From contig DXFW01000019.1 of assembly GCA_019114225.1 (NCBI GenBank), positions 1 through 64,000 on the forward strand: a stretch of 64,000 nucleotides of DNA, in the 5' to 3' direction. This document shows positions 2,565 through 19,366 of this stretch, in pieces. The position numbers and the translations under genes are program-made. Position 1 is the first letter of the stretch, and the number at the start of each line of letters is the position of its first letter. The notes beneath the pieces are model-generated. The model worked only from the letters and a program-made list of their open reading frames with translations, searched no databases and had not been told where the DNA came from. The DNA is from Candidatus Allofournierella pullicola (GTDB taxonomy: Bacteria; Bacillota; Clostridia; Oscillospirales; Ruminococcaceae).

Positions 2565-3815
2565 TCAGCCACTTTCTTCAACCTTTGGACGAATACCGAA
2601 TGTAAACACGCAAAACACCAAGAATAGCGCTGTCACGGGGATGAACATCGCCACTGTATACAGTCCGTGATCTGCCATTGTCCCCACCACCGAGCTAATC
2701 ATCATGCTGCCCAGCGTACCACATACTCCGGTAATTGCAGTGACCGTGGCTGAGCAGCGGGGAAATGCCTTACATGCCAGCACGATTCGGGCCGTATAGC
2801 TTGCTCCGCTGAGGATACCGAACAGCAGCGTTCCCGCCATCCAAAACATCGGCTGCTGTACCAGCAGCATTGCCGCCACCAAAAGAGCCGACAGCAGACT
2901 GGACCATCGCAGATACACCTCTGGTGGGAGCCGGGATCCCAGAAACGCTAATCCCGAGCGGCTGAGAATCATCCCCACATAATTTGCTGTCATCAGCGTA
3001 GTGCAGAACGTTACTGTGTAAACCGTTTTATCAAACTGCTCCAAATATGTAGGCAGCCAGATGGTAAGATAGGTCACTCCAGAGAGAAGCATGCTGCTCA
3101 GGCAAAGCCATCGAATGAACGGGCTGGACAATATTTCTCTGTATGGAATATTCTCTTTTTCATGGGTGGCAGCGTTTGGTGTCCTGGTGGCATTGGTCTC
3201 CCTGTTCTTTTCATCATTCGCTAATGCACCTTCGGCCCTCGCACTTCCAATCAGCCGGCTCAAAGCCATAAACAGCAATGCTGCACCTGCCATAACGCCG
3301 CCGCTAACAAGATAACCTGTCTGCCACCCTTTTGTTTTGATACAAAAGGCTGCGAACGAAGGCGCTGCCATGCTGCCCGCCGCAAACAATGTGTGCAGGA
3401 TAGAAATATATCTTGCACGCTGCACTCCAAATAAATCGGAAATATACGCAGCACAGAGATTGTCTACCATTCCTCCAAACAGACCGATACACAATCGTAC
3501 CGCCAGTAGAACGATATAAGCCGGTGCCGCACCTGTTGCCAGCAGTGCTGTGCCATAGACCAACGCCATCCATGTGAGCAGGATACGTTTGTTCAGCCGA
3601 TCAGCCAGTAAAAGTGTAACCAACATGGCCAAAGACTGGCCAATATCCGCCGTTACTGTCAGTGCAGATGCCTGCTTTAGGCCCAGGGCATACTCTTCGA
3701 TCATGCGAGGCATCATCGTGCTGTACATACTATTGGATACTGCAAACCCTACCATAAAGACGCAGGTAAAAGCAGCAGCCAGCGCCACACAACGCCGAAC
3801 GGCAATCGTACTCAC
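2565..3815 (-). CDS. Major facilitator superfamily transporter
   Basis: A 416-residue, very hydrophobic protein with about 12 predicted membrane helices split by a charged central loop around residues 195-225 (RAEGALANDEKNRETNA), as in MFS carriers. The loop between helices 2 and 3 has ADRLNKR, a form of the MFS signature. The start is GTG, whose GTGA overlaps the stop of the upstream aldolase, so it is translationally coupled and last in the nucleoside operon. This suggests transport of a sugar or nucleoside-derived substrate or export of an end product; the direction and substrate cannot be read from the sequence. Confidence 0.85.
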   Translation of the reverse strand: MSTIAVRRCVALAAAFTCVFMVGFAVSNSMYSTMMPRMIEEYALGLKQASALTVTADIGQSLAMLVTLLLADRLNKRILLTWMALVYGTALLATGAAPAYIVLLAVRLCIGLFGGMVDNLCAAYISDLFGVQRARYISILHTLFAAGSMAAPSFAAFCIKTKGWQTGYLVSGGVMAGAALLFMALSRLIGSARAEGALANDEKNRETNATRTPNAATHEKENIPYREILSSPFIRWLCLSSMLLSGVTYLTIWLPTYLEQFDKTVYTVTFCTTLMTANYVGMILSRSGLAFLGSRLPPEVYLRWSSLLSALLVAAMLLVQQPMFWMAGTLLFGILSGASYTARIVLACKAFPRCSATVTAITGVCGTLGSMMISSVVGTMADHGLYTVAMFIPVTALFLVFCVFTFGIRPKVEESG

Positions 3816-4510
3816 GGGCGCACCCCGGCCGCTGTAGCCCAGGGGCCTTTTCCCCTGCTTTCTCCTTGTGCCAAACGCAGAGCGTCCAGTGCCGACAGCT
3901 CCTCAGGGCACAACAACTTTCCTGCACTGCCTGCCTGCTCATACAACGCGAGCACGCGGAAATAATGTTCCACCGCTTCTGCGCGGTCGAATGCCTGCCA
4001 CAGATCCTTTCCCCAAGCAGTGAGGCCATGATTCTGCAAAAGCACTGCACAGGAAGTATTTGCATGAAGTGCTACCGCTTGCGCCAGTTCTCTGCTTCCC
4101 AAAGGAAGGTACGGCACAACAGGGATATATCCCACCTGCAAGATAATATCCGCACACAATGCCGGCCAACGTGCACCCGGACCGCGTGCAGAAAAGCACA
4201 CGGCTCTGGGTGCATGCAAATGAATCACTGCGCCAATGGTGGGGTCGGCCTCATACAATGCTTTATGCATCTCCGTCTCACTGGAGGGTCCGGTACCCGA
4301 TACTATATACCCGCCATTCTCTGGCCGAAGGTTTACCATTTGTCCAGGCAACATTCTTCCCTTGCTCACACCGGAGGGCGTGATCAGGATACTTTTGTCC
4401 GGTAGCCGCACTGAGATATTTCCATCATTGGAAGCCACATATCCTTTTTGATACGCCAGCCGGCCCACCCTGCAAAGCAGTCGGGAATTCTCTTTCAGCG
4501 GGTCGCACAT
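3812..4510 (-). CDS. Class II aldolase (fuculose-phosphate aldolase / ribulose-1-phosphate aldolase type)
   Basis: A 232-residue protein from the ATG at 4510, which has GGAGG just upstream; a longer start at 4537 would overlap the preceding gene and has no ribosome site. Class II aldolase/adducin hallmarks are the glycine-rich SNDGNISVR near residue 30, the catalytic-Glu segment SSETEMHKALY, zinc ligands in HLHAPRAV, and the third His in LLQNHGLTAWG. These enzymes cleave 1-phosphorylated ketoses to DHAP and an aldehyde. With MtnA and a nucleoside phosphorylase in the same operon, the likely substrate is ribulose-1-phosphate or a 5-deoxy/5-methylthio analogue, as in the known DHAP shunt. Substrate choice is inference. 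Confidence 0.88.
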   Translation of the reverse strand: MCDPLKENSRLLCRVGRLAYQKGYVASNDGNISVRLPDKSILITPSGVSKGRMLPGQMVNLRPENGGYIVSGTGPSSETEMHKALYEADPTIGAVIHLHAPRAVCFSARGPGARWPALCADIILQVGYIPVVPYLPLGSRELAQAVALHANTSCAVLLQNHGLTAWGKDLWQAFDRAEAVEHYFRVLALYEQAGSAGKLLCPEELSALDALRLAQGESRGKGPWATAAGVRP

Positions 4511-4533
4511 AGTTCCTCCTTCAGCGCACAGGG

Positions 4534-5592
4534 TCATTTCATGATTTCTGCCAGACCTTGTTCAAACGGCGGATAGACAACGCCTTTTTCCGTAATAATC
4601 GCAGTGATAAATTCGTTGTCTGTAACATCAAAAGCAGGATTGTATGCCTTAATTCCGGCGGGCGCCTGCGGCGTTTTGTACCACAGAGTACTGATCTCAC
4701 TGTCTTGCCTGAGCTCGATCTGAATATCCTTGCCGGAAGTGCAATTCATATCAATGGTGGAAGTGGGCGCGCAAACATAAAACGGCACCCCGTAACGACT
4801 GGCCACAATAGACAGAGTAGACGTACCGATTTTATTCGCCGTATCGCCGTTGGCAGCCACGCGGTCGCAGCCCACCAGGCAGGCATCCACCCATCCATTT
4901 TTCATCACAATGGAGCACATGTCATCGCAGAGCAGAGTGACATCCACGCCGGCCTGCTGCAGTTCCCACGCGGTCAGTCGGGCACCCTGCAGCAACGGGC
5001 GGGTCTCATCAGCAAACACACGGAAGCCATAGCCCCTGTCTTGGCCCAGATAAATAGGTGCCAGCGCTGTGCCATATTTTGCCGTAGCAATGGTACCCGC
5101 GTTGCAATGTGTCAGCAGGCCCATTCCCGGCCTCAGCAGCGCCAACGCATTTTCGCCAATGGCTTTGCAGACCTGTTCATCTTCTTCGCGAATTGCATGG
5201 GCTTCCGCCAAAAGCGCGGCTTTGCAGCGGCTCACAGGCTGCCCCTCACAGGCGTCCAGGCATCGCTGCATACGATCCAGCGCCCAGAACAGGTTTACTG
5301 CGGTAGGACGTGCGCTCGCCAGAAATTTTCTTGCCTCGGTAAAATCCGCGTGTAAAGCAGCCCACTCCGTAGCAGAGGACTGCTTGGCGGCCAGGTACAC
5401 ACCATAGGCTGCCGCGATGCCGATGGCAGGCGCTCCCCGAACCTGCAGCCGATAGATTGCATCCCAAATCTGCTGTTGCGTCGTCAATGTCAGGTATTTT
5501 GTTTCACCCGGCAAAAGCGTCTGGTCCAGAATGATCAGTGCGTTTTTCTCGTCGTCCAGGCGGACGGATACCACATCATCCACAACACTCAT
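4534..5592 (-). CDS. mtnA: MtnA-family aldose-1-phosphate isomerase (methylthioribose-1-phosphate isomerase-like)
   Basis: A 352-residue protein, standard for MtnA of the eIF2B-like superfamily. Substrate-loop RGAPAIG is at 52-58. The catalytic Cys163 lies in THCNAG and the catalytic Asp243 in GCDRVAANGD. The family reaction converts 5-methylthioribose-1-phosphate to 5-methylthioribulose-1-phosphate; relatives use 5-deoxyribose-1-phosphate or ribose-1,5-bisphosphate. No methylthioribose kinase is present. The adjacent phosphorylase would yield the 1-phosphate directly, so this isomerase probably links phosphorolysis to the aldolase. RBS AAGGAGG is clear. The exact 5-substituent of the substrate is not decided by sequence. 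Confidence 0.9.
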   Translation of the reverse strand: MSVVDDVVSVRLDDEKNALIILDQTLLPGETKYLTLTTQQQIWDAIYRLQVRGAPAIGIAAAYGVYLAAKQSSATEWAALHADFTEARKFLASARPTAVNLFWALDRMQRCLDACEGQPVSRCKAALLAEAHAIREEDEQVCKAIGENALALLRPGMGLLTHCNAGTIATAKYGTALAPIYLGQDRGYGFRVFADETRPLLQGARLTAWELQQAGVDVTLLCDDMCSIVMKNGWVDACLVGCDRVAANGDTANKIGTSTLSIVASRYGVPFYVCAPTSTIDMNCTSGKDIQIELRQDSEISTLWYKTPQAPAGIKAYNPAFDVTDNEFITAIITEKGVVYPPFEQGLAEIMK

Positions 5593-5606: not shown

Positions 5607-6305
5607 TTATTCCGCCATCAACTCCAGTGCAAAACGGGCAATTGCATTATAGGCTTCCTCGCGTTGCCAAGCGTTGAGCGTTTCTTCAGTAACAGCATTT
5701 TCAAAGACACATAGCAGTCCTAACGCCGGCAAACCAAAGCGGGCCGCAACGGTATACACCTGGTTCATTTCCATATCCAGCCCCAGTGTGCCCCGGTCGG
5801 CAAACCGTGAAACCACAGGCAGCTCGTCCCTGATTTCCAGCGAAAGGACCGGCCCGACCCAGACACGCTGTCCCTGCTTATGCGCACGCTCCCACGCCTT
5901 GTTCAGAAGTTCAAAATCCGCCGCCGCCGGGAACGTGCGTCCTCCAAAGCGCAGGCGGTTTATGCGGGAGGTGGTGTGGGCAGTCTGTGCTAGCAACCAG
6001 TCGCCCGGTTTTAGTCGGGGATCGATTGCCGTGCAGCCTTCCAACTTCACGAAACACCTTGCCTCGAATTCGCCGGCAATCTCTGCCGCATACATCGCTG
6101 CGGACACCGGGCCAACACCGGTCCCTTGGACTGTGATTTCTTTGTTCTGGAACTTGCCGGTATAACCATGCATGTTGCGGATCTCGTTGTAGCAGACCGT
6201 ATCTTGCAAAAGGCGGGTGGCAATATACTGAACATTGCTGTCATCTTGTGTCAGCAGAACCACATTCGCAACATCTCCGGGAGAACCTGTCAGGCACAAC
6301 CCCAT
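5607..6305 (-). CDS. Divergent nucleoside phosphorylase-fold protein, likely altered active site
   Basis: A 232-residue member of the PNP/UDP phosphorylase fold, sharing the NEIRNMHGYTGKFQ and VQGTGVG segments with its upstream neighbour. Key positions differ. The phosphate-binding GDP of DeoD enzymes aligns with QDD (20-22), and the catalytic Asp of the CSDH motif aligns with Asn203 in FENA. The MEM motif (178-180) at the ribose site remains. It starts directly after the stop of the canonical phosphorylase. It may be a regulatory partner in a mixed oligomer, a hydrolase-like variant, or a phosphorylase for an unusual nucleoside. The alignment was made by eye. Confidence 0.72.
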   Translation of the reverse strand: MGLCLTGSPGDVANVVLLTQDDSNVQYIATRLLQDTVCYNEIRNMHGYTGKFQNKEITVQGTGVGPVSAAMYAAEIAGEFEARCFVKLEGCTAIDPRLKPGDWLLAQTAHTTSRINRLRFGGRTFPAAADFELLNKAWERAHKQGQRVWVGPVLSLEIRDELPVVSRFADRGTLGLDMEMNQVYTVAARFGLPALGLLCVFENAVTEETLNAWQREEAYNAIARFALELMAE

Positions 6306-7058
6306 TTATCTCCCCTCCTCTGCCAGTTTGTACGCCGTCTCCAGCGCCACTTTCATCATGTTGTTATACGCTGTTTCCCGCTGTGCCAAAGGGGTGTCCT
6401 CACTCTTATAAATCTGGTGATCACTGCAGGTGATTAGCAAAAGTGCCCGCACCTGGGGATAGCGTGAGGCCGCCACCAGCAGGCCTGTGCCCTCCATTTC
6501 GCTGGCCACCATTTTGTAGCCCTTCCATGGATCAAGATAACTCTGAGGCTGATCCGGTTCTTTATAGAGCACGTCCCCACAAGCACTCACTCCCACATGA
6601 ACCGGGATCCCGTTTTCTTTTGCGCAGTCATAGGCTGTTTTCAACAGCGTGAAATCACTGGTGGGAACGAAATCGTACTCTCCAAAATCCATCACTGTGT
6701 TGTTCGATTCGCTGGCGCTGGCCGTGGAAAGAATGGTATCTCCCACGTGGACATCCAGTTCCTTACTGCCCGCTGTGCCGATTCGGATAAGGTTACGACA
6801 GCCATGATCTTCGATCAGCTCATAGGCACACTCCATAATGGAGGAGGTCCCCATGCCTGTTCCCTGCACAGACACGCGCACACCCTTGTAAACACCTGTA
6901 TAACCGTACATGCCGCGATTGGTATTGTAGCACTTGACGTCTTCGAGATAGCGCTCTGCGAGGTAGCGTGCACGAAGCGGATCTCCGGGCAGGAGCACTG
7001 TTTCCGCAATGGAGCCTTTCGGCGCACGCAGCAAACCTGGTCCAAACAGGTTGATCAT
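6306..7058 (-). CDS. deoD: Purine nucleoside phosphorylase, DeoD-like hexameric type
   Basis: A 250-residue protein. Phosphate/ribose site motifs are LLPGDPLRARY (22-32), YNTNRGMYGYTG (44-54) and QGTGMG (65-70); the ribose-binding EME is at 187-189 and the catalytic Asp213 in CSDH. These enzymes cleave purine ribonucleosides with phosphate to free base and ribose-1-phosphate. The start ATG overlaps the stop of the permease gene (ATGA), tying catabolism to import. Products fit the operon: ribose-1-phosphate (or a 5-modified form) to MtnA, and adenine to the adenine deaminase encoded at 17.6 kb. Annotation as uridine phosphorylase is possible, since both belong to one family. Confidence 0.88.
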   Translation of the reverse strand: MINLFGPGLLRAPKGSIAETVLLPGDPLRARYLAERYLEDVKCYNTNRGMYGYTGVYKGVRVSVQGTGMGTSSIMECAYELIEDHGCRNLIRIGTAGSKELDVHVGDTILSTASASESNNTVMDFGEYDFVPTSDFTLLKTAYDCAKENGIPVHVGVSACGDVLYKEPDQPQSYLDPWKGYKMVASEMEGTGLLVAASRYPQVRALLLITCSDHQIYKSEDTPLAQRETAYNNMMKVALETAYKLAEEGR

Positions 7059-7981
7059 GGTTTGTCCACCTTCTTTCTTTTCATCTTGCCGGCACTTTTC
7101 GCCGCTGCAACCAGCCCGATCATAGTAACCAGATAGGGAAGCATCCGTACCAGCTCACTGGGGATATTCAATGTACTGGCAGTGTTGGCCACAGCATCCG
7201 CTGTGCCGAACAGCAAAGATGCCAGTGCACCGCCCAGCGGGTGATTCCCGCCCAAAGCTGCAGAAGCCATGCCAATAAATCCTCGGCCTGCAGTCATGTT
7301 CGTCTGGAACCAGGAAACATATCCCATAGACATAAAGCAGCCGCCCAGTGCCGCCATCACACCGGCGATGCACATCGCCAAAATCTTGATACGCACAGAA
7401 TTGATTCCCACAGATTCAGCCGCGCTGTCGTTTTGGCCTACCATTCGCAGCCGCAGACCCAGCTTGGTTTTAAAAAGGAAAACGTGCATCAGCACCGCCA
7501 TCAGCACCGCAATATAGGTCAGCACATTATGCCCGGACAAGACTTCTCCCAGCACAGGGATATCGCGGAGGAGCGGAATATCCACTGTGGGCAGTGTCAG
7601 GCTCATCACACCCGAGCTCATACCTTTGCTGCCCGTCACAACATAAAGGATGAAGGTGGTGCCGCCGGCCATCATCAAGTTGAAAGCAACACCGTTCATA
7701 AACATATCCGCTTTAAGCACCAGCGCTGCATAAGCGATCACAAAGGACATCAGCACGCCGATGGCCACTGCGATCAACAGACCCAACCAAGCGCTGTGTG
7801 TCCAGGCGCTGAAAAGCACCCCCATCAGTGCGGCGGTGAGCATTGTGCTCTCGATTGCCAGGTTCATCATTCCTACCTGGGCTACCACAATGCCCGCCAG
7901 GCTGGCATACAGCAGCGGAGTAGTCATTCGGATGATGGTTGCCAGGAACGTCGGGGAAAAGATCAACGAAGCGATATCCAT
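7055..7981 (-). CDS. Nucleoside ABC transporter permease, second subunit (NupQ/YufQ-like)
   Basis: A 308-residue membrane protein with about eight to ten predicted helices and the family segments GMMNLAIE near residue 37 and GFIGMASAALGGNHPLGG near residue 237. This is the inner-membrane permease family of BMP-type nucleoside importers (related to branched-chain amino acid and sugar permeases). It follows the first permease by three bases and overlaps the phosphorylase start. Together with the first permease and the ATPase it should form the translocation channel for nucleosides delivered by the lipoprotein at 10.8 kb. Confidence 0.92.
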   Translation of the reverse strand: MDIASLIFSPTFLATIIRMTTPLLYASLAGIVVAQVGMMNLAIESTMLTAALMGVLFSAWTHSAWLGLLIAVAIGVLMSFVIAYAALVLKADMFMNGVAFNLMMAGGTTFILYVVTGSKGMSSGVMSLTLPTVDIPLLRDIPVLGEVLSGHNVLTYIAVLMAVLMHVFLFKTKLGLRLRMVGQNDSAAESVGINSVRIKILAMCIAGVMAALGGCFMSMGYVSWFQTNMTAGRGFIGMASAALGGNHPLGGALASLLFGTADAVANTASTLNIPSELVRMLPYLVTMIGLVAAAKSAGKMKRKKVDKP

Positions 7982-7984
7982 GGT

Positions 7985-9067
7985 TTATTTTCCCCCTTCC
8001 AGTTTTATATTGGCCGTAGCCTGGGCAAACGTGCGTTTTTTCTCCCAACCGGCCAGGAAGTTTTCCGCCACAAGCAGGATAATGACTACACCCTGAATGA
8101 TGGACACGATTTCGTTAGGCACATCAGTCATTCGTGTCATAATATCCGCGCCCACACGCATATACGCAAGGAAAAACGCTCCAAGGGGCACCAGTGCCGG
8201 ATTGTTACGGGCAAGCGTGGCCACGATGATGCCATCCCAGCCAAAGCCGGGAAGGTCTTTCCACATGAAGGCGCTGTACATACCCAGCATCTCACTGGCA
8301 CCGCCAATGCCGCACACCGCTCCGGCAAGTCCCTGACCGATCAGGATCGCAGTGCCTGCGCTGATGCCGGAATAAACGGCAAACTTGTGATTGGATCCTA
8401 CCATGCGCATCTTGTATCCCCAACGGCTTTTGTACAGATAGAGCCACAGCGCCGCGACACACAGCACCGCGAGAATAAGGCCCGCATGGATACGGGTGCC
8501 GGGAATGATGCGCGGCAGAACCGCGTTCTCGTTGAAGGGAAGGGATTGCAGTGTTCCGGACGCGGGGTCCTTAACGAACGTGCGAATCAAAAAGCTGCCA
8601 AGATAGAACAGCACATAGTTGAACATCAGCGAGGCAACGATCTCGCTGGCATCATAGCGCAGCCGTATCACCACCGGCACCAGCATGGTAACAATGCCGC
8701 CCAGGGCAGCGATCAGAATACAAACTGCCGGCAGAATGACCGGCGGCAGATCGAGCTGCACAGCGGCCAGTGCCGCCAGTGCGCCGCTGAAATAGAAAGC
8801 GCCCTCACTGGCCAGATTGATGATGTTTGTGCGGGCTATCAGCGAGATTGCAAGCCCGGTGAACACCAGCGGCAGCGCCGCCTCCACAACGTTGGCCAAA
8901 CGGCTCATTTTTTTCAGCGGGCCGAAAATAAAATAGCCGATTGCCTCGCCCGGAGTTTCACTGACAGCCACAATGATCACCAGTGTCAGGCCCAGCGCAA
9001 TGCCCACAGCCAGCAGCGTGCGGATAAAGTTGAAACACATGCGGCTGCTCCAAATCTTTTTCAGCAT
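7985..9067 (-). CDS. Nucleoside ABC transporter permease, first subunit (NupP/YufP-like)
   Basis: A 360-residue polytopic membrane protein. An N-terminal helix (about 14-34) is followed by a periplasm-facing loop and multiple further helices. Family segments include TNIINLASEGAFYFSGA around 85-100, YDASEIVASLMFNYV and GFGWDGIIVATLARNNP near 280. It is a BMP-type nucleoside importer permease. The start overlaps the end of the ATPase gene by seven bases, so translation is coupled. If the ATPase frameshift is real, expression of this permease would depend on reinitiation. Confidence 0.92.
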   Translation of the reverse strand: MLKKIWSSRMCFNFIRTLLAVGIALGLTLVIIVAVSETPGEAIGYFIFGPLKKMSRLANVVEAALPLVFTGLAISLIARTNIINLASEGAFYFSGALAALAAVQLDLPPVILPAVCILIAALGGIVTMLVPVVIRLRYDASEIVASLMFNYVLFYLGSFLIRTFVKDPASGTLQSLPFNENAVLPRIIPGTRIHAGLILAVLCVAALWLYLYKSRWGYKMRMVGSNHKFAVYSGISAGTAILIGQGLAGAVCGIGGASEMLGMYSAFMWKDLPGFGWDGIIVATLARNNPALVPLGAFFLAYMRVGADIMTRMTDVPNEIVSIIQGVVIILLVAENFLAGWEKKRTFAQATANIKLEGGK

Positions 9068-10673
9068 GTGCAGGCGCCTCCTTTCCCGTCATCATACAGG
9101 CCCGTGAGTTCCTTTTCCGACTGCTGTGCCAGACCCAGCATGTACAAACCAAGTTCTTCCTCGGTCAGCTTTTTCACATCCGGGAAAAACCCGGTGATTC
9201 GTCCGCCATGCATCACGATGAGCCGGTCAGACAGTTCCAGTACTTCGTTCAGATCCGAACTCACCAGCAAAATAGCACATCCGCCTTGACGCGCCGCAAG
9301 CAGCGCTTTGTGGATAGTCTCTGCCGCCCCCACATCGATACCGCGGGTGGGCTGGCTTGCAATAAGCACTTTGGGATTGGTGGACATCTCACGGACCACC
9401 ACTACTTTTTGGATATTACCGCCCGAGAGCATCTTTACCGGAACCGACGGCGACTTACAGTGCACAGAAAACCTTTCTGTGAGCTGTGAAGCCAGCTGCG
9501 CTTCTTTCTTTCCGCTGAGAAGGAATCTGCCGCCCAGGTCCGGATCATCGCAACGGGTCGAAATGTAGTTCTCTGTAATGGATTCTTCACGGGCAACACC
9601 GTATGTCATTCGATCCTCATGGATGTAGGACATTCCCAAATCACGACGCTCCCGGATGGACAATTCATTACCGGGACGGCCCAACAATTCGAAGGTTCCC
9701 TCAGAAGGCTGCTGTAAGCCGCCTAGGATCTCCGCAAGCTCTTTTTGACCGCTGCCTTCCACACCGGCTACACCGAGGATACAACCGGCGTGCAGGTCCA
9801 GGCTGACATGATCCAGCACAGTGATGCCGTGGCGGTCCACACAGCTCAAGCCGCGTATCTTCAGCACCGTCCCACCTTCCTCCATCGGAGGTTTTTCAAT
9901 CGTCTGTACCGCGTCTCGGCCCACCATCAGTCGGGAGATATCCCGGGCGGTCAGTTCCTTCACTTCATAGGTTCCCATCACTCTGCCCGCACGCATAATG
10001 GTCAGCCGATCACAGATTGCCTGGACCTCATCGATTTTGTGAGAAATGAAAATAATGGTATAGCCACCCTCCTTCAAGAGGAGAAGCTGCTTAAAAAGTT
10101 CCTGTGTCTCCTGAGGGGTGAGTACAGCGGTGGGTTCGTCCAGAATAATCAGATGCGAGTTTCGGTAAAGGCTCTTCAGTATCTCCACTTTTTGCTTCTG
10201 ACTCACGGAAATGTTGCGAATCAATTCTTCCGCCTTGACATTGAACCCATATTTTTCCGCCAGACGGTCCACCACCTCAGCGGCGCCACGCTTGTCGAAA
10301 AAGATACCGCTGTTGGGTTCCATCCCCACCACAATGTTCTCTGCCACAGACAGCTCCTCGGCCAGATTGAAGTGCTGGTACACCATGCCAATTCCGAGGG
10401 ACACTGCCTTTTGGGGCGAATCGATCTGCCTGGGCTGCCCGTCATAAACGATGGTGCCCCGATCAGGCCGTTCGTTTCCGAACAGTACCTTCATCAGAGT
10501 GGACTTGCCGGCGCCGTTTCACCCATAAGGGCATGTATCTCTCCCCGACGCACGCTAAAATCGACATTTTCATTTGCCAGAACACCGTTGTCGTATACTT
10601 TGGTGATACTGCGCATCTCCAGCAGTATGCCGCCCATCGGGGTCTGCACGTTTTTTTCTGCTCGTTCCTGCAT
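9061..10673 (-). pseudogene. Nucleoside ABC transporter ATPase with a one-base frameshift in Walker A
   Basis: Two overlapping frames together encode a NupO/YufO-type ATPase of about 536 residues with two nucleotide-binding domains. The 5' frame starts at 10673 after AAAGGAG (MQERAEKNVQ...) and runs to RGEIHALMGE, then shifts to ETAPASPL and stops at 10496-10494. The other frame reads NGAGKSTLMKVLFG and is open to 9061. A run of AAA (minus strand, 10519-10517) where AAAA would restore GENGAGKST explains the shift. Everything downstream is intact: Q-loop YQHFN, signature ISVSQKQKVEIL, Walker B LIILDEPTA and a second domain with LSGGNIQKVVV. The second domain naturally lacks a standard Walker A. 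The cause may be true inactivation or an assembly/sequencing error in a homopolymer. Confidence 0.85.
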
Positions 10674-10781: not shown

Positions 10782-11918
10782 TTACGGACGGGCATTGTTG
10801 ATAATTTCTTTCACCTGCGCTTCGTCCATGCCATAGGCTGTGTCCACCACGATCTCGCCGGACAGGATCTTTTCTTCCAGTTCGGTGATACGGTCGCGGA
10901 TATCCTGAGGAACATTCTTCTGGTAATACTCGTTGTTGGACAGGCAGATAATTCCTTCCGCCACACCCAGCGTCTCGCCAGTGCCGAACACTTCTTCACC
11001 GTTCATATAGCGTTCCACCACTTGCACGATGTTTTTGTCCAGGCTCTTCAACTGGGAGGTAAGGATCAGGTTGGCTTTTTCGGGATCATCCTCGTACAGC
11101 AGCGACTGGTCGGAATCGGTACCGATGGAATACTTCTGCGCTTCTTTGCCCGCGTCCAGTGCGCCCAGGCCGGCGCCGCCAGCACCGTTGTATACCACAT
11201 CGCAGCCCGCATCAAACATGGTCTTGGCGATTTCCTTGCCCTTGGCCGCGTCGGTCCAGGAAGCAGTGTAAGAAGTAATGACTTTCATCTCGGGGTCGAT
11301 GTACTGTGCCCCCTGGATAAACCCAAGCACAAAGTCATTGATCAGCGTAATGTCCATGCCGCCTACAAAGCCCACCAGTTTGGAAGCCGGATCCGCATTG
11401 GGCATTTCTTCAGAGGTGGAAACCATGGCAGCCAGCGCACCGGCCAGGAATGCACCCTCATTGCCCTTGTAATCGGCGGAGTAGATGTTGGGATTCGCAC
11501 CGTTTTCGTGATCCACCTGCGTATCCAGCAGGATATACTTCTGATCCGGGAACTTAGCTGCGACTTCTACCATGGGTTCTGCGCTCTGGAAGCCGATTGC
11601 CACAATGATATCCCATTCGCCGCCAGACACATCTTCCAGCGTGGGCAGGATTTTGGTGTCATCATTTCCGTATTCGATGACTTTTGTCTTTGCGCCATAT
11701 TGTTCGGTGAGCTGTTTCAGACCATTGGCCGCAGATTCGGAGAAGGATTTGTCGCTGGCGTTTCCTGTGATGAGCACCACACTGGGCACTTCTGCGCCTG
11801 TCTGCTCAGCGCCGGACGCGCCGCTTGTTGCAGGCTCGGAAGAAGGGCTGCCGCCGCAGCCGATCAAAAGGGATACCATAAGGGTCAGTGCAAGAACGAT
11901 CGCTGATAACTTTTTCAT
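10782..11918 (-). CDS. BMP-family nucleoside-binding lipoprotein (PnrA/BmpA-like)
   Basis: A 378-residue lipoprotein. The start at 11918 is supported by AGGAGG nine bases upstream and gives a classic lipoprotein signal: MKK, hydrophobic core, then LLIGCG with lipid-modified Cys21, followed by a Ser/Gly/Glu linker. The mature domain resembles the basic membrane protein family (VVLITGNASDKSFSESAANG near the N-terminus, IIVAIGFQSAEPMVEVA, and GFVGGMDITLINDFVLGF), which binds purine nucleosides. It is first in the transporter operon, preceded by a region with AACACAA repeats. It would capture nucleosides at the outer face of the membrane. Confidence 0.95.
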   Translation of the reverse strand: MKKLSAIVLALTLMVSLLIGCGGSPSSEPATSGASGAEQTGAEVPSVVLITGNASDKSFSESAANGLKQLTEQYGAKTKVIEYGNDDTKILPTLEDVSGGEWDIIVAIGFQSAEPMVEVAAKFPDQKYILLDTQVDHENGANPNIYSADYKGNEGAFLAGALAAMVSTSEEMPNADPASKLVGFVGGMDITLINDFVLGFIQGAQYIDPEMKVITSYTASWTDAAKGKEIAKTMFDAGCDVVYNGAGGAGLGALDAGKEAQKYSIGTDSDQSLLYEDDPEKANLILTSQLKSLDKNIVQVVERYMNGEEVFGTGETLGVAEGIICLSNNEYYQKNVPQDIRDRITELEEKILSGEIVVDTAYGMDEAQVKEIINNARP

Positions 11919-11940
11919 AATGTGCCTCCTTTGAAAATGA

Positions 11941-11979
11941 TTGTGTTTTCTCCCGAATCCAACACAAACTAACACAAAT
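11941..11979. promoter_or_regulatory. AACACAAA repeat cluster, likely DeoR operator
   Basis: Three copies of one heptamer lie between the divergent DeoR and transporter genes: TTGTGTT (11941-11947), AACACAA (11961-11967) and AACACAA (11972-11978). The first two form a perfect inverted repeat; the last two are direct repeats 11 bp apart, one helical turn. The same octamer recurs near the oxidoreductase promoter at 20438-20445. DeoR proteins typically bind such repeats and respond to phosphorylated sugars; assignment to this DeoR is inference. Confidence 0.6.
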
Positions 11980-12062: not shown

Positions 12063-12830
12063 ATGCTTGCGATTACTCGTCTGAACGCCATCAAAGAGAT
12101 CATCCGCCAGCAGAAAAGTGTGCTTGTCAGCGAACTGGCGCCCCGTTTCGATGTGACGGAGGAAACCATTCGCCGCGATTTGAAGAAACTGGAGGATGAA
12201 GGACTCGTCACCCGCGTATACGGCGGCGCATATAGCACCGGAGGCGTGCAAAACGATGTGAACATTTCTCTGCGGCAAACCATTCTCGTGGATGAAAAGC
12301 GGGCCATCGCATGCCGCTGTCTGTCTTCCATAACCAACGGCGACTGCATCTTTCTGGACTGTTCCACCACGGTTTTGGAACTGGCTCAGCTTTTGACTCA
12401 GTACAGCCTGACCGTGATCACCAACTCGTTGAAAGTCGCGGACTGTTTGGCCACATGCAACGATATCCGCCTGATTCTGGTAGGCGGCACCCTGCACCAC
12501 ACGTCCATGTCCTTTCTTGGGCAAAATGCCTGCTCCGCGCTGGCAAATTATTATGTAGACAAAGCTTTTGTTTCCTGCCGTTCACTATCCATTCGGCATG
12601 GCATCACGGACTCCAACGAGGAGCAAAGCCTTTTGCGGCGCGTAGCCATCCAGTCTTCCGACCAGGTGTTCTTACTGGCTGACCACACGAAGTTCGATAC
12701 AACTTCCTTCTCCAAAATCGCAACGCTGGATGAGATCAGCACCCTGGTGACAGACCGTCCTCTTTCGCCCGAGTGGAAGGAATACATGGACAGCAAGGGA
12801 TTTTGCTACATCGACACCGATTTGGTATAA
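12063..12830 (+). CDS. DeoR-family transcriptional regulator
   Basis: A 255-residue protein preceded by AGGAGGG. The N-terminal winged helix includes SELAPRFDVTEETIRRDLKKLEDEG (the usual DeoR recognition region). The C-terminal sensor domain is of the DeoRC/sugar-phosphate-isomerase type: DCSTTVLELAQLL near 100, ITNSLKVADCLA, VLVGGTLHHTSMSFLG and LADHTKFDTTSF. DeoR proteins usually repress catabolic operons until a phosphosugar binds. It is divergent from the transporter operon and convergent with the RLP gene, and shared AACACAAA motifs suggest it controls more than one unit. The effector may be a pentose-1-phosphate. Confidence 0.93.
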   Translation: MLAITRLNAIKEIIRQQKSVLVSELAPRFDVTEETIRRDLKKLEDEGLVTRVYGGAYSTGGVQNDVNISLRQTILVDEKRAIACRCLSSITNGDCIFLDCSTTVLELAQLLTQYSLTVITNSLKVADCLATCNDIRLILVGGTLHHTSMSFLGQNACSALANYYVDKAFVSCRSLSIRHGITDSNEEQSLLRRVAIQSSDQVFLLADHTKFDTTSFSKIATLDEISTLVTDRPLSPEWKEYMDSKGFCYIDTDLV

Positions 12831-12831
12831 C

Positions 12832-14043
12832 TCAGGCTCCCTCCGCCGCGCTTTTCTGCGCGGCGTTTTTTCTTTCCCACACGTCATACGCCTGTTCCAC
12901 TGCTGTTACAAAGCGTTTGCAGTTTCGTCTTACATCGCTGCCGCAGGTAAAAAGGCCTCCGCCAATCAGCACCAGTACGTCGGGACCATAGCTCGAAACG
13001 ATCTCCCCGATGTTTTCCAGCTGCATGCCTCCGGCAGGGCTTGGGAACACCGTCTTCAGGGTTCCCAGCGGGCTGCGTCCGGCTTCGGCAATGCCAAGGC
13101 ACTGCTCTCGGGACAAGGAAAATCTGCCTCCGTAGTTGGGAAAAATGACCGCGTCCGCTCCTGCCATGCGCATTAGCGTTCCAAACAGCACCGGGAACGA
13201 GATTCCCTGCGGATTGACCGCATAACTTCCGATAAACGCCGGATGCGAAAAAACCGGCAGGGCGAGTTCATCGTTTTCCGCCAGTGCACGCATTGCGTCC
13301 AGGCTGGTGAGTCCGGGAGCTACCATCACACCACCAGCGCCCCACTGCTTTGCCCGCAGTGCCCTTTCAAACATCTGCTCTGCTGGACCGGTGATGTTGG
13401 GCACATACATTGCCCTGCGTCCGGTTCGGATGTTTGCCTCTGCCACTGCTTCCGCGCAGCGGCGCACACGCTCGTCGAAAGGAGCAAACACCTGATCAGT
13501 CAGGCCATGGTCATCTTTGATGATGTCCACGCCGCTTTCCACAAAAGCCTCTGCCAAATCCGCCAACTCATGAGCGGACAGGCCCATGGGCTTGAGCGCC
13601 GTGAACACCGGTGGGCGCCTGGAGATTCCCAGTCGGGCACGCAAACCATCCGTACCAAAGCGCGGTCCTCTGACCATGGACAGCAGCGCCGGTGTAAGCT
13701 CCACCGCCTCTACACGAATCCCCGGCATAATGCTGATGTTTCCGAACAAAACATTCAGAAGCTGGGTGAACTCACCTGCGGCAATTTCCTCCGCATAACT
13801 GATACATGCCAGATATCCGCCATCGTTCGCCGGCTGCAGGCTTTCCAATTGTCCCACTACCCGATCCAGGATGATTCCCGGCGGGATAGCCTCCAGCGGA
13901 AATTCTACCGTCTGCTCCCGGCACACGGCCTCAGCCAATGCCCGTGCGGAATCAAGATCTCCCTGCAGCCGGTATGTGACCTGGAAGCGCTTTCCATGCA
14001 GCTGACCGCACAGACGCCGGTCATCGTATGTAACAAAACCCAT
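12832..14043 (-). CDS. RuBisCO-like protein (form IV, type not decided)
   Basis: A 403-residue RuBisCO large-chain homologue. Active-site positions by eye: Lys151 in LKPMG (equivalent to spinach K175), then KDDH at 176-179 where true RuBisCO has KxDE. The carbamylated Lys and the Asp metal ligand are kept, but the Glu ligand is His. His267 in FSHPAF is kept. Loop 6 reads PNYGGRF, without Lys334, and the S379 region reads PAGGM. It is therefore not a carboxylase. Known RLP reactions include methylthioribulose-1-phosphate isomerisation, diketo-phosphate enolisation and 3-oxo-isoapionate-4-phosphate conversions. It follows the transketolase genes by 24 bases. Given the nucleoside operon nearby, a ribulose-1-phosphate-type substrate is my preferred guess. 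Confidence 0.9.
   Translation of the reverse strand: MGFVTYDDRRLCGQLHGKRFQVTYRLQGDLDSARALAEAVCREQTVEFPLEAIPPGIILDRVVGQLESLQPANDGGYLACISYAEEIAAGEFTQLLNVLFGNISIMPGIRVEAVELTPALLSMVRGPRFGTDGLRARLGISRRPPVFTALKPMGLSAHELADLAEAFVESGVDIIKDDHGLTDQVFAPFDERVRRCAEAVAEANIRTGRRAMYVPNITGPAEQMFERALRAKQWGAGGVMVAPGLTSLDAMRALAENDELALPVFSHPAFIGSYAVNPQGISFPVLFGTLMRMAGADAVIFPNYGGRFSLSREQCLGIAEAGRSPLGTLKTVFPSPAGGMQLENIGEIVSSYGPDVLVLIGGGLFTCGSDVRRNCKRFVTAVEQAYDVWERKNAAQKSAAEGA
12844..12871 (+). terminator. DeoR terminator located inside the RLP 3' coding end
   Basis: CGCCGCGC (12844-12851), loop TTTTCT, GCGCGGCG (12858-12865), then TTTTTT. It serves the rightward DeoR gene ending at 12830, yet its bases encode the last residues of the convergent RLP. 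Confidence 0.85.
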
Positions 14044-14067
14044 AGCACACCTCTTTTTCTGCCCGTA

Positions 14068-15075
14068 TTAAAGAGCCTCAGGCTTTGCATCGCTGTGCAT
14101 TGCCGGGGTGTACGTTTCCATCAAATCCTGCTCCCGGATGCCAAACTTCCGGTCAAGGACCTTTTCCACTGTGCCAATCAATGCCATGGCATCCAACCCA
14201 TACTCGCGCATCAAGTATCGCCGGCTGGCACCGTGTACAAAGGTATCCTGAATCCCCAGTCGGTAAAGCGGCTTTGCCACACCATAGGAAGCCATGCACT
14301 CGGCCACGATGGTGCCCAGGCCGCCGATTACACTGTGATTTTCCAGTGTGATCGCTCCAAACCGGCTGCGGGCAATCTCGTCCATGAGTTCGGGATGTTT
14401 GAAGGGCTTCAGGGTGGAGATATGATAGTGGCTTACTGCAACATTGCAATCCCGCAGGGCGGCCACCGCCCGCATCCCTTCCTCTGTACAAATGCCACTG
14501 GTCAGCAGAACAAAGTCTCTGCCCTCTGACAATTTGCGGTATTGGCCCAGCCGCATCGGCTCGTTTGCCGGGAACAACCGGGGGACCTCGCCCCGCAGCT
14601 GGCGCACATAGACCGGTCCGTTCACATTGTAGGCCACATCCAGCACAGATTCAATGTCCGTCGCATCACCGCTCTCCAGGATAGTCATGTTCGGCAGCGC
14701 GCGCATCACTGCGATATCTTCGATTGCCTGGTGCGTGGCGCCGCCCGGCGTGAGTACACCGGGCAAAAAGCCGAACATTTTCACCGGCAAGTTTGGATAC
14801 GCCACCGACATAGCGATCTGGTCATAGGCACGGCGATAAATGAACACCGCAAACGTGTGCACCAGAGGGACCAGCCCTTCTCGGGCCATTCCTCCTGCAA
14901 AAGCGAGCATATTCTGCTCTGCAATGCCCATTGAGAGGAATCTCTCCGGATATGTGTCGCGGAAAAGATCCGCCTCGCTGGAGCCTGTCAGATCCGCGGA
15001 AAGCACATACACATCAGGCTTATCCTTCGCCCAAGTGGCCAGATTCCTGGCATGCACTTTTTTCAAGATCTCCAT
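14068..15075 (-). CDS. Transketolase, C-terminal (pyrimidine-binding plus C-terminal domain) subunit
   Basis: A 335-residue protein from the ATG at 15075, which has AGGAGG upstream and begins MEILKKVHARNLATWA. It holds the second half of transketolase: the thiamine-activating Glu53 in GIAEQNM, the PYR domain (to about 180) and the C-terminal domain. Together with the gene just upstream it forms one functional transketolase, the split arrangement common in Clostridia. Transketolase moves two-carbon ketol units between sugar phosphates. The stop of the N-terminal gene is one base before this start, so the subunits are co-translated. Co-transcription with RLP suggests a ketose-5-phosphate made or used locally. 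Confidence 0.92.
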   Translation of the reverse strand: MEILKKVHARNLATWAKDKPDVYVLSADLTGSSEADLFRDTYPERFLSMGIAEQNMLAFAGGMAREGLVPLVHTFAVFIYRRAYDQIAMSVAYPNLPVKMFGFLPGVLTPGGATHQAIEDIAVMRALPNMTILESGDATDIESVLDVAYNVNGPVYVRQLRGEVPRLFPANEPMRLGQYRKLSEGRDFVLLTSGICTEEGMRAVAALRDCNVAVSHYHISTLKPFKHPELMDEIARSRFGAITLENHSVIGGLGTIVAECMASYGVAKPLYRLGIQDTFVHGASRRYLMREYGLDAMALIGTVEKVLDRKFGIREQDLMETYTPAMHSDAKPEAL

Positions 15076-15076
15076 A

Positions 15077-15994
15077 TCAGCGCACCTCCTTTGCCATTTC
15101 TTGATACACAGCGGCATAGGCTGCCCGCTCATCCTCACTGGTAAAGCGCACATAGTGGAATTTCGGATAACGCCCCTTCAGAATTGGCAGACCACGGCAT
15201 GGATCTGTATCACACAAAACAAATGTCGGCACATCACATGCAGGCTGTAAGCCCAACTCCGCCAATTTAGACAGGTCGTGTCCATCAATCCGGTATACCC
15301 TCGCACCAAACGCCGTGAGTCGGTCGTGGAAAGGTTCCAGATTCATCACCGAAGTCATTTTTCCATCACACTGGTATCCGTTCACGTCCACATAAATCAG
15401 CATATTGCCAAGTTTGTGATAGCTCATCGCCTGCACGGCTTCCCAGAACTCACCGGACTGGCACTCACCGTCAGACATCAGAAGCACCACCCGGCCCTGA
15501 TCTCCCCGCTGCCGCCGGGCAAATGCTATTCCAGCAGCTTGGCTGATTCCCTGCCCCAACGACCCAGTGGTGACTTCCATCCCAGGGGAGTGCTCTGCGC
15601 CAATCATCTCCACAGCACTGCCATCCTGATCGTATCGCGCCATCCCGCGCAGGTCCATGCGACCGGTCTCCACCAGGGTTGCATAGAGCACCAGCGCATA
15701 CTGCGCGGGCGAAAGGATGAAATTGTCACAATCGGATCGTCCTGCGCCATTGAAGGCCGCTCCCGTGACCGCCGGGTGGTCGGGACCAGGCGTACCAGTA
15801 AAATCGCCTGGCATTAACGGCACATCCAATTCATTCAACCTCAGGATCCGTGTATACAAGGCGGAAAATATCTCTGCGGAAGAACAGGCCTGGCTGAGAT
15901 ACCCACCATTGCGGCTGACAGTATTTTGAAGGACCCGAAGTCGAATGCGGTCGGCAATGCGTTGTGCCTCGTCTCTCCATTGCTGCTCGTTCAT
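15077..15994 (-). CDS. Transketolase, N-terminal (thiamine pyrophosphate-binding) subunit
   Basis: A 305-residue protein matching the N-terminal half of transketolase. The thiamine diphosphate motif begins at SDGE (174-177) and ends at Asn205 in DVNGYQCDG, giving the GDG-X28-N pattern with Ser in place of the first Gly. GSLGQGIS is at 144-151. The usual phosphate- and thiamine-site HSPGMEVTTG also appears. It is first in its own unit with a strong promoter and is followed by the C-terminal subunit and RLP. Two-subunit apulose-4-phosphate transketolases are also known, so substrate is not assured. Confidence 0.92.
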   Translation of the reverse strand: MNEQQWRDEAQRIADRIRLRVLQNTVSRNGGYLSQACSSAEIFSALYTRILRLNELDVPLMPGDFTGTPGPDHPAVTGAAFNGAGRSDCDNFILSPAQYALVLYATLVETGRMDLRGMARYDQDGSAVEMIGAEHSPGMEVTTGSLGQGISQAAGIAFARRQRGDQGRVVLLMSDGECQSGEFWEAVQAMSYHKLGNMLIYVDVNGYQCDGKMTSVMNLEPFHDRLTAFGARVYRIDGHDLSKLAELGLQPACDVPTFVLCDTDPCRGLPILKGRYPKFHYVRFTSEDERAAYAAVYQEMAKEVR

Positions 15995-17643: not shown

Positions 17644-19350
17644 TCAGTCAGCATAGAGCGGGATCATTTCCTGCCGGATCGTATCCAGCAGACCCCGGTC
17701 TGTCAGCCGGACTGCCGGAATAACCGCCAGCGCAAAGGAAGACAGCATCATGTGCGGCGTATGACCAGGAAGGCCAAACCGGGAAAGCACTTCCTTCAGC
17801 TGTTCCAGCTTTTGCGCCATCACCTGAGGCGGCTCGTCGCACATCAGTCCTGCCAGGGGAAGTTCCAGCTGAAAAACGACACGGCCCTGTTCCACGCAAA
17901 CAATTCCACCGCCAGTGGCCGCCAACGTAGATGCCGCCAGATACATTTCCTGTGGGTCGCGGCCAGCCACAAAAAGGTTATGACAATCGTGTGAGATCGT
18001 GGTTGCAACCGCACCGGTAACGAGCCCCAGCCTGTGGACTGGAGCCAGCGCCCGGCTACCGTTGCGGCCGTGGCGTTCAAACACTGCAAATAGTGAAAAA
18101 TCCGCTTGATTTCCAATGCATGCACAGCCATTTTCCACTGGGAACTCGCAGGTCTCCAGTGACGTGACGAACTTATTGTCGTCATTGTAAGCAATGGTGT
18201 GCAGCTTCACACTGGGCCCATGCGCCGGCACCTGAAAGTCTTCCGGGCGGATGGGGGTTGTTAGCAGCATAGTATTGGGATAAGACTGTTTTTCTTCCTT
18301 GTCTTCCCGAATCATGTTACCTCCGCGTGCAATCAGCTCTCCACCCAGGAACACTTCATCAGGGCGGAAGTCATGCAGATCAGACACCAGCAAAAGATCC
18401 GCGAGATTTCCCGGGCGGAGACTTCCCCTGTCGCGCAGACGAATCAGCCGCGCCGCGTTGACCGTTGCCGCTTTGATCGCGTCGATCGGGTCCATCCCGC
18501 CTTTTACCGCAATACGGATCATTTCATCCAAATGCCCATGCTCCACCAAATCGCCCGGCTCGGTATCATCTGTACAGAATGTGATGTTTTCCAGGCAATC
18601 CAGCCTCAGCAGCAAAGGCAAAAGACGTTCCAAGTCATAGCAATTGGAGGCATGGCGCACCTCCAGCACCATGCCAGCACGGAGTTTTTCCAGTGCCTCC
18701 TCCACCCGATGGGTCTCATGGTCCGATTCACAACCCGCAGCTAAATATCGGGATAATTCCTCACCGGTCAGATCGGGCGCATGCCCCTGAATAAACACAC
18801 CAGCCTTCCGGCCAGCGCACAGCACCTCCTGCATACGAGGAGCGTCCGCCACCACGCCCGGGTAATCCATTACCTCGCCCAGGCCCGCTATCCGGGGCTG
18901 TTCCAGTATCCACTCAATTTCCTTGCCGCCAAATGGTTCCCGGCACGTTTCCACTTCCGGCACCGATGGCACACAGGAAGGTGCAAGGATGAGCACTCTC
19001 AAAGGAAGATTCTCCGTCGCCTGCAACATATACTGGATTCCTTTCAGGCCCATTACATTGGCGATCTCATGGGGATCGGCGCAGACGGTCGTCGTGCCCC
19101 GTGGCGCCAGCGCTCTTGCAAAATACCGCGGGGTCATCATGCTGCTTTCAATGTGCAGATGTGTATCAATGAGTCCCGGTACCGCGAACTTGTTTTTTGC
19201 GTCGTATTCCCACACTCCCGTCAACTCAGCTTCGCCCGGCTGGGTAACGTGCGCAATGCGTCCACTCTGCACCGCGATCTGCGCCGGATACATCTCATGG
19301 GTAAACAGATTCACATAAATAGTATTTTTTATCACAAGATCGTAGAGCAT
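17644..19350 (-). CDS. ade: Adenine deaminase
   Basis: A 568-residue amidohydrolase. The start at 19350 has AAGGAG upstream and gives MLYDLVIKNTIYVN. The metal-binding signature GLIDTHLHIESS, the ADPHEIANVMG segment and FCTDDTEPGDLVEHGHLDE are all characteristic of bacterial Ade (COG1001). The C-terminal adenine deaminase domain (THTISHDCHNLF-like, here TTISHDCHNLFVAG) is complete. The enzyme hydrolyses adenine to hypoxanthine and ammonia in the cytosol. This fits salvage of base released by the phosphorylase at 6.3 kb. It lies 16 bases after the oxidoreductase gene in one unit. Confidence 0.92.
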   Translation of the reverse strand: MLYDLVIKNTIYVNLFTHEMYPAQIAVQSGRIAHVTQPGEAELTGVWEYDAKNKFAVPGLIDTHLHIESSMMTPRYFARALAPRGTTTVCADPHEIANVMGLKGIQYMLQATENLPLRVLILAPSCVPSVPEVETCREPFGGKEIEWILEQPRIAGLGEVMDYPGVVADAPRMQEVLCAGRKAGVFIQGHAPDLTGEELSRYLAAGCESDHETHRVEEALEKLRAGMVLEVRHASNCYDLERLLPLLLRLDCLENITFCTDDTEPGDLVEHGHLDEMIRIAVKGGMDPIDAIKAATVNAARLIRLRDRGSLRPGNLADLLLVSDLHDFRPDEVFLGGELIARGGNMIREDKEEKQSYPNTMLLTTPIRPEDFQVPAHGPSVKLHTIAYNDDNKFVTSLETCEFPVENGCACIGNQADFSLFAVFERHGRNGSRALAPVHRLGLVTGAVATTISHDCHNLFVAGRDPQEMYLAASTLAATGGGIVCVEQGRVVFQLELPLAGLMCDEPPQVMAQKLEQLKEVLSRFGLPGHTPHMMLSSFALAVIPAVRLTDRGLLDTIRQEMIPLYAD

Positions 19351-19366
19351 GTGGCTTTCTCCTTTT

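Follow-up and report, generated by a model that had tools for sequence, protein, structure and literature searches.

A DeoD-type phosphorylase paired with a paralogue of dismantled active site in an MtnA–aldolase operon of Candidatus Allofournierella pullicola

Introduction

Why would a bacterium keep, side by side, two genes of one phosphorylase family when the second has lost much of the family's active site? The question is raised by a 64,000-nucleotide stretch of Candidatus Allofournierella pullicola (contig DXFW01000019.1 of assembly GCA_019114225.1, positions 1 to 64,000; hereafter the window). Positions 5607-7058 of its minus strand encode two adjacent proteins related to purine nucleoside phosphorylase (PNP) of the DeoD type, here called PNPA and PNPB. 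A sequence-only reading of this DNA had placed the two in a nucleoside operon and suggested that they could form a mixed oligomer or divide labour between phosphorolysis and sensing or hydrolysis.

Hexameric DeoD is described as a homo-oligomer in which the sites of one subunit are completed by another (PMC6193948; this and the other papers cited are drawn on in part). Within its dimers, His4 and Arg43 of each subunit serve the site of its partner. Phosphate is bound by R24, R87, S90 and the neighbour's R43, while D204 together with R217 protonates N7 (PMC6193948). In a DeoD-type enzyme the lent histidine, His4*, hydrogen-bonds sugar hydroxyls (PMC3434127). MtnA and a class II aldolase form the core of the dihydroxyacetone phosphate (DHAP) shunt, which excerpts of two reports describe as fed either by a nucleosidase plus a kinase or by MtnP (PMC10986504, PMC6079011). 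Our reading of the locus, an even call on sequence-level evidence, is that phosphorolysis by PNPA would feed MtnA and the aldolase, and that PNPB would be a non-catalytic partner, most likely in a mixed oligomer.

Results

PNPA (6306-7058, minus strand, 250 residues) and PNPB (5607-6305, minus strand, 232 residues) score 114.2 and 85.9 bits against PF01048, both above its cut-off of 25.1 bits, and are 29% identical; the sequence-only reading had given the limits of the two genes exactly. They are translationally coupled: at the junction (6305-6308, minus strand) the PNPA stop TAA (6306-6308) abuts the PNPB start ATG (6303-6305), and AGGAGGGG lies just upstream. PNPA scores above the cut-off of the DeoD model NF004489 (254.4 against 230 bits) and under that of TIGR00107 (214.1 against 232.25). 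Aligned to Bacillus cereus DeoD, it keeps G20, R24, R43, R87, T90, E179-M180-E181, D204 and R217. The contrast between GDP in PNPA and QDD in PNPB at residues 20-22, and the retention in PNPA of a catalytic Asp213 at the position of DeoD Asp204, were thus seen correctly from the letters alone.

The active site of PNPB is dismantled, and the protein falls under the cut-offs of the same two models (TIGR00107, 161.8 of 232.25 bits; NF004489, 175.8 of 230). In the phosphate loop, residues 20-24 read QDDSN in place of GDPLR (6234-6248, minus strand), and residues 87-90 read KLEG in place of RVGT or RIGT (6036-6047, minus strand), so that the phosphate residues G20, R24, R87 and S/T90 are replaced by Q, N, K and G. 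Changes relative to B. cereus DeoD include QDD, R24N, R87K, G89E, T/S90G, G92T, S203F and D204E, together with deletion of F159 and Y160. What remains is D21, M180, E181, R217 and Arg43 (6177-6179, minus strand), the counterpart of which serves the neighbour's phosphate site in DeoD; DeoD positions 179-181 read D-M-E.

The predicted structure of PNPB is confident (predicted local distance difference test score 92.3, predicted template-modelling (TM) score 0.90) and retains the DeoD fold. The model can be overlaid on 3uaw and 3uay across 231 residues (2-232 on 2-234), matches DeoD structures with Z about 35 and a root-mean-square deviation of 1.7-1.8 (Z 35.6 to 5mx4), and reaches TM scores of 0.92-0.94 to the top DeoD chains in Foldseek. 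Asn203 had been placed at the catalytic aspartate; the letters were right, but the register had slid by one. In an alignment to B. cereus DeoD that is gap-free in this region, F201, E202 and N203 occupy DeoD positions 203-205, so that Glu202 (codon 5700-5702, minus strand) lies under Asp204 and Asn203 under His205. The predicted fold points to the same equivalence of 202 with 204, given the aligned ranges and the two-residue deletion at 159-160. Asparagine as the catalytic residue of PNPB is ruled out by alignment and fold. The sequence-only reading had named another acid at this position in a structure-based alignment as evidence against its own proposal; this is what the window holds, with Glu, and not what its two orthologues hold, with Ser.

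These orthologues, which speak against PNPB being a singleton or an artefact, were found among 396 genomes of the family, in G923 (46% identity, 215 bits) and G844 (44%, 208 bits). Both belong to genus g452, of which the set has no other genome; this genus differs from that of the window. The next family match, at 160 bits, is canonical. No PNPB orthologue was found in 149 relatives, in 394 genomes of the order, in 391 of the class, in the other 4 of the genus, or in a scan of the GTDB species' contigs for exact 8-residue patterns. The search of 398 genomes of the phylum gave no further PNPB among the 20 of 62 listed matches that were examined, which include the window's own and 19 that are canonical or repeats. 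For the searches at order, class, family and phylum level, the listed matches are those with strict E-values; the genome sets overlap. Matches occur in 74 plasmid records, all under 60% identity (identity being all that was compared).

The pair and its operon are conserved across the three genomes. Common to all is a core of a BMP-type ABC importer, PNPA, PNPB and MtnA, with the aldolase. In G923 and G844 one strand carries adjacent adenine deaminase and DeoR genes, and the other carries aldolase, BMP protein, ATPase, two permeases, PNPA, PNPB and MtnA; the aldolase is thus first in these operons, whereas it follows MtnA in the window. The PNPA stop and PNPB start overlap there as ATGA, rather than abutting. 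Between the genera, PNPB is 44-46% and PNPA 47-49% identical. The G923 and G844 PNPBs carry Q20, D24, R43, K87, E89, M or T at 90, Q92, D-M-E, Ser at 204 and R217. As a separate observation, the BMP binding-protein gene of G923 (L171, 8791-10038) reads as two pieces in one frame and therefore has an in-frame stop in that assembly; in G844 it is whole.

The losses in PNPB are not spread at random. Conservation in at least 90% of 97 canonical alignment rows picks out 59 positions; 30 of these are kept in every one of the three PNPBs, 16 are lost in every one, and 13 are kept in some and lost in others. The same-subunit pocket positions (20, 24, 87, 92, 159, 203 and 204) are lost 7/7 in all three, against 9/52 of the other positions (Fisher test, 3e-5). 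This pocket list, drawn in part from papers, was set before counting; K87 is counted as lost though conservative, and the changed positions 64, 89 and 179 lie outside the list. The canonical rows include B. cereus DeoD; L002, a uridine phosphorylase, and L127, on a long branch, were dropped, and repeats of one gene were removed before the counts. By the same measure, the PNPAs of the three genomes share the loss of four conserved positions (67, 71, 72 and 159), and their pocket set is complete except for an F159L change common to all three. Trans-acting His4 is absent from both proteins: position 4 is Leu in 3/3 PNPAs, Cys, Ser and Ser in the PNPBs, and His in 94 of 96 canonical rows, a count that leaves out B. 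cereus DeoD.

In a set of 105 rows that takes in the window's two proteins and B. cereus DeoD, G20, R24 and R87 are missing from the three PNPBs alone. All three residues stand in the remaining 102 rows, of which one is a uridine phosphorylase, and Arg43 is present in 105/105. DeoD-like proteins on viral contigs, with the IMG/VR assignment of the contigs taken as given, have a full active site in 63/63 cases (80 loci, L209-L288, reduced to 63 distinct rows of at least 190 residues). Position 204 alone is lost elsewhere with the phosphate site intact, as Asn in four rows and as Ser, Val, Glu and Gly in one each; some of these variants lie in unsure alignment, and the Gly row is the uridine phosphorylase. 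The Asn204 proteins, DeoD-type with intact phosphate sites, group in one small clade (L047, L051, L053 and L054, from G242, G267, G458 and G165). Tandem DeoD arrays of up to four genes were also noted at L036 6753-8242 (G054:C31), L176 8591-11689 (G870:C13), L037 6182-7646 (G021) and L179 6360-7835 (G850); one member of the L036 array has Ser204 and Lys217 with its phosphate site intact.

PNPB is under purifying selection. Between G923 and G844, the ratio of non-synonymous to synonymous substitution rates (dN/dS, Nei-Gojobori; dS 0.72-0.93) is 0.186 for PNPB, 0.120 for PNPA and 0.122 for MtnA. For these genomes the MtnA, permease and ATPase genes were taken from stop to stop, with some upstream codons, and PNPA and PNPB from their starts. 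Between the genera dN/dS means little, because synonymous sites are near saturation. PNPA and PNPB form separate clades, each with 100/100 support; the housekeeping DeoD of these genomes falls outside both. The clade stems are long (0.81 and 1.45), the tree program flags long branches, and the deeper placing of both is therefore unsure. A recent duplication was considered and ruled out, given the separate long-branched clades and the closer similarity of PNPB to canonical DeoDs from other families of the class (best 36-38%) than to PNPA (29%).

The surrounding genes make this more than a plain nucleoside operon, with an MtnA-type sugar 1-phosphate isomerase (4534-5592; TIGR00512 414.4 bits, cut-off 279) and a class II aldolase-family protein (3812-4537; PF00596 157.2 bits, below cut-off in all NCBIfam models listed) lying within it. 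On the minus strand the order is BMP/PnrA-type substrate-binding protein (10782-11975; PF02608 201.5 bits), ABC ATPase (9061-10494; PF00005 108.3 bits in 2 stretches), permease 1 (7985-9067; NF047929 126.2 bits, under cut-off), permease 2 (7055-7981; PF02653 117 bits), PNPA, PNPB, MtnA, aldolase and an MFS transporter (2565-3815; PF07690 139.4 bits). A DeoR-family regulator is divergent on the plus strand (12063-12830; PF00455 168.5 bits, PF08220 61.9 bits). An adenine deaminase-like gene stands apart from the operon in the window (17644-19425, minus strand; TIGR01178 459.7 bits, just below the 472.5 cut-off).

What could supply MtnA with its substrate was approached through the gene content of the genome. 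A methylthioribose (MTR) kinase model has no match in the window's genome; the same search gives matches in 2/14 control genomes. PF01048 matches five genes of the genome: besides PNPA and PNPB, these are a housekeeping DeoD, a uridine phosphorylase and one that resembles class I PNP by eye. No methylthioadenosine/S-adenosylhomocysteine (MTA/SAH) nucleosidase was recognised among these five in this 97.6% complete genome, and MtnP was not searched with its own model. Since no MTR kinase match is present, a phosphorylase is the best candidate supplier of the sugar 1-phosphate; with no MTA/SAH nucleosidase recognised either, PNPA, not PNPB, is its likely source. In a DHAP shunt, DeoD-type PNPA would stand in for MtnP or for MtnN with MtnK.

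Other MtnA loci place this arrangement in context. MtnA occurs in 31/237 family genomes, and 23 of the 31 neighbourhoods were examined (some end at contig ends), including those of the window, G844 and G923; a strong PNPA-like gene is present in these three alone, accompanied by PNPB every time. Elsewhere, 80 close MtnA loci were kept of 109. They include a methylthioribose kinase operon (L057; MTRK 466.6 bits, cut-off 275) and a locus with a window-like ABC ATPase and permeases plus nucleoside hydrolase, PfkB kinase, MtnA and aldolase (L063, 182-11785), which seems to run the same route with a hydrolase plus a kinase. A DeoD-like gene lies near MtnA in 1/80 loci, in a gammaproteobacterium (L127), where it has a canonical active site and stands on the opposite strand about 3 kb from MtnA and aldolase. 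PNP-like genes adjoin MtnA in L326 and L327, at only 53 and 46 bits to PNPA, and appear uridine-phosphorylase-like by eye.

Elsewhere in the window, positions 12832-15994 hold a RuBisCO-like protein (PF00016 90 bits; six NCBIfam matches, all below cut-off) adjoining a transketolase in two overlapping genes, with M24-like, adenine deaminase-like and oxidoreductase genes alongside. Positions 21231-46331 are occupied by one repetitive open reading frame of 8366 residues on the minus strand, with giant antisense frames on the plus strand. Two small overlapping open reading frames at 892-1568 carry an HAFLDGNKR motif, and we take the pair, without a family search, to resemble a toxin-antitoxin system of the Phd/Doc type.

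Discussion

In the proposed route, a purine nucleoside would be imported through the BMP-type ABC transporter, and PNPA would split it with phosphate into the base and (5-deoxy)ribose 1-phosphate. MtnA would then isomerise the sugar phosphate and the aldolase would cleave the product to DHAP and an aldehyde, so that flux would follow a kinase-free path resembling the DHAP shunt. PNPB would be a pseudo-phosphorylase that has the DeoD fold, the ribose residues Met180 and Glu181 and trans-acting Arg43, its own phosphate, base and acid residues being gone. It may have been retained as a non-catalytic partner that completes, stabilises or tunes the sites of PNPA, most likely within a mixed oligomer. 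The loss of its own pocket combined with retention of the Arg43 that it would lend suits a mixed dimer, short of proof. Absence from both proteins of His4, which bonds sugar hydroxyls in trans, suits a 5'-deoxy or 5'-thio nucleoside as the putative substrate. A more specific version is offered tentatively, as something we would not yet bet on: an obligate heteromeric DeoD enzyme that would open a kinase-free DHAP shunt as a 5'-deoxyadenosine or methylthioadenosine phosphorylase, and in which the pseudo-subunit lends Arg43 and shapes or gates the partner's pocket, much as a prozyme would.

Several observations weigh against the proposal of a catalytic PNPA with a non-catalytic partner. The losses shared by the PNPBs count as one evolutionary event rather than three, as they come from only three genomes of two genera in one lineage. 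Arg43 is present in PNPA too, which might by itself form a complete homohexamer. At position 4 PNPA has a constant Leu, a residue that acts only in a partner's pocket and therefore suits PNPA-PNPA dimers. In the window PNPB the acid position is occupied by Glu, and in E. coli PNP the loss of Asp204/Arg217 is described, in the part of the source drawn on, as leaving 7-methylguanosine cleavage going (PMC6193948). Moreover, the last step of the pathway may belong to another enzyme, because the aldolase is placed elsewhere in the orthologous operons and its best NCBIfam models differ between these and the window.

PNPB might instead act by itself in binding or sensing, as a non-catalytic homo-oligomer that holds nucleoside or a (5-deoxy)ribose species by means of Met180/Glu181, Arg43* and Lys87 and, for example, reports pathway flux. 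We consider this improbable. Met180, Glu181, Arg43 and Arg217 are kept, Q20, K87 and E89 are newly fixed in all three proteins, and the fold appears orderly across them (one was modelled); however, the position of PNPB between PNPA and MtnA with a coupled start suggests a stoichiometric enzyme partner over a regulator, the operon already has a DeoR-type regulator, and any ligand role is purely putative. To a similarly low degree we credit a new activity, either a nucleosidase using an acid in the former phosphate loop (Asp22 in the window, Asp24 in the orthologues) or a sugar-phosphate enzyme. Acidic loop residues in all three PNPBs, PNPB-specific residues fixed across genera and the Glu at 204 of the window protein would fit it. 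Yet position 204 is Glu, Ser and Ser, the base-contact residues at 92, 159 and 203 are either gone or not constant, and the MTA/SAH nucleosidase model NF004079 gives 24.1 of 169 bits.

A nucleosidase would also leave a product in need of a kinase, and the genome gave no match in the kinase search, which covered MTR kinase alone. The hydrolysis suggested by the sequence-only reading is likewise disfavoured, as the three PNPBs have no conserved general acid in common. By contrast, its suggestion of a mixed oligomer or divided labour is suited by the loss of the phosphate site, conservation of the pair in three genomes of two genera, and translational coupling. That PNPB is a decaying duplicate without function is very hard to believe: lost pocket residues, 44-46% identity between genera and the Glu/Ser/Ser variation are what decay might leave, but the frame is open and in the same place in three genomes, the fold is confidently predicted, dN/dS is 0.186 in the less saturated pair, and PNPA is hardly better conserved between genera.

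Compared with the DeoD-type hexameric PNPs of E. coli, B. subtilis and B. cereus, PNPB has the fold, length, ribose residues, Arg43 and Arg217 in common, and PNPA has the same full phosphate site and acid. The differences are the missing phosphate, base and acid residues of PNPB, the missing His4 of both, and the presence of two genes as a conserved pair. In the DHAP shunt and 5-deoxyribose salvage (MtnN plus MtnK or MtnP, MtnA and Ald2; DrdK, DrdI and DrdA), entry by a phosphorylase is known from the passages available (PMC10986504, PMC6079011); the window's phosphorylase is DeoD-type rather than MtnP, an apparently dead paralogue stands alongside, and the operon is kinase-free.

The closest functional parallel may be prozyme-type pairs, such as trypanosomatid S-adenosylmethionine decarboxylase and deoxyhypusine synthase, in which a dead paralogue is kept beside an active one (PMC5201418, PMC3663545, in part). 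PNPA and PNPB show the same arrangement in three genomes of two genera, with death judged from residues. Complex formation and activation are reported for the prozyme pairs, which have other folds, whereas the present pair is known from sequence and sits in a single bacterial operon. We found no DeoD pseudoenzyme or heteromer described in the open PMC literature, as represented below full-text level. Partnership with a dead paralogue is thus already known, and a conserved phosphorylase/pseudo-phosphorylase pair of the DeoD type is apparently new.

DeoD dimers have been argued, in the portion of the report available, to be functionally non-equivalent (PMC8160210). If the proposed partnership is true, the pair would be a natural DeoD with one kind of subunit stripped of its pocket, providing a direct test of this asymmetry. 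The disposal of 5'-deoxynucleosides would likewise gain a DeoD-type entry step, in a genome whose five PF01048 matches include no recognised MTA/SAH nucleosidase.
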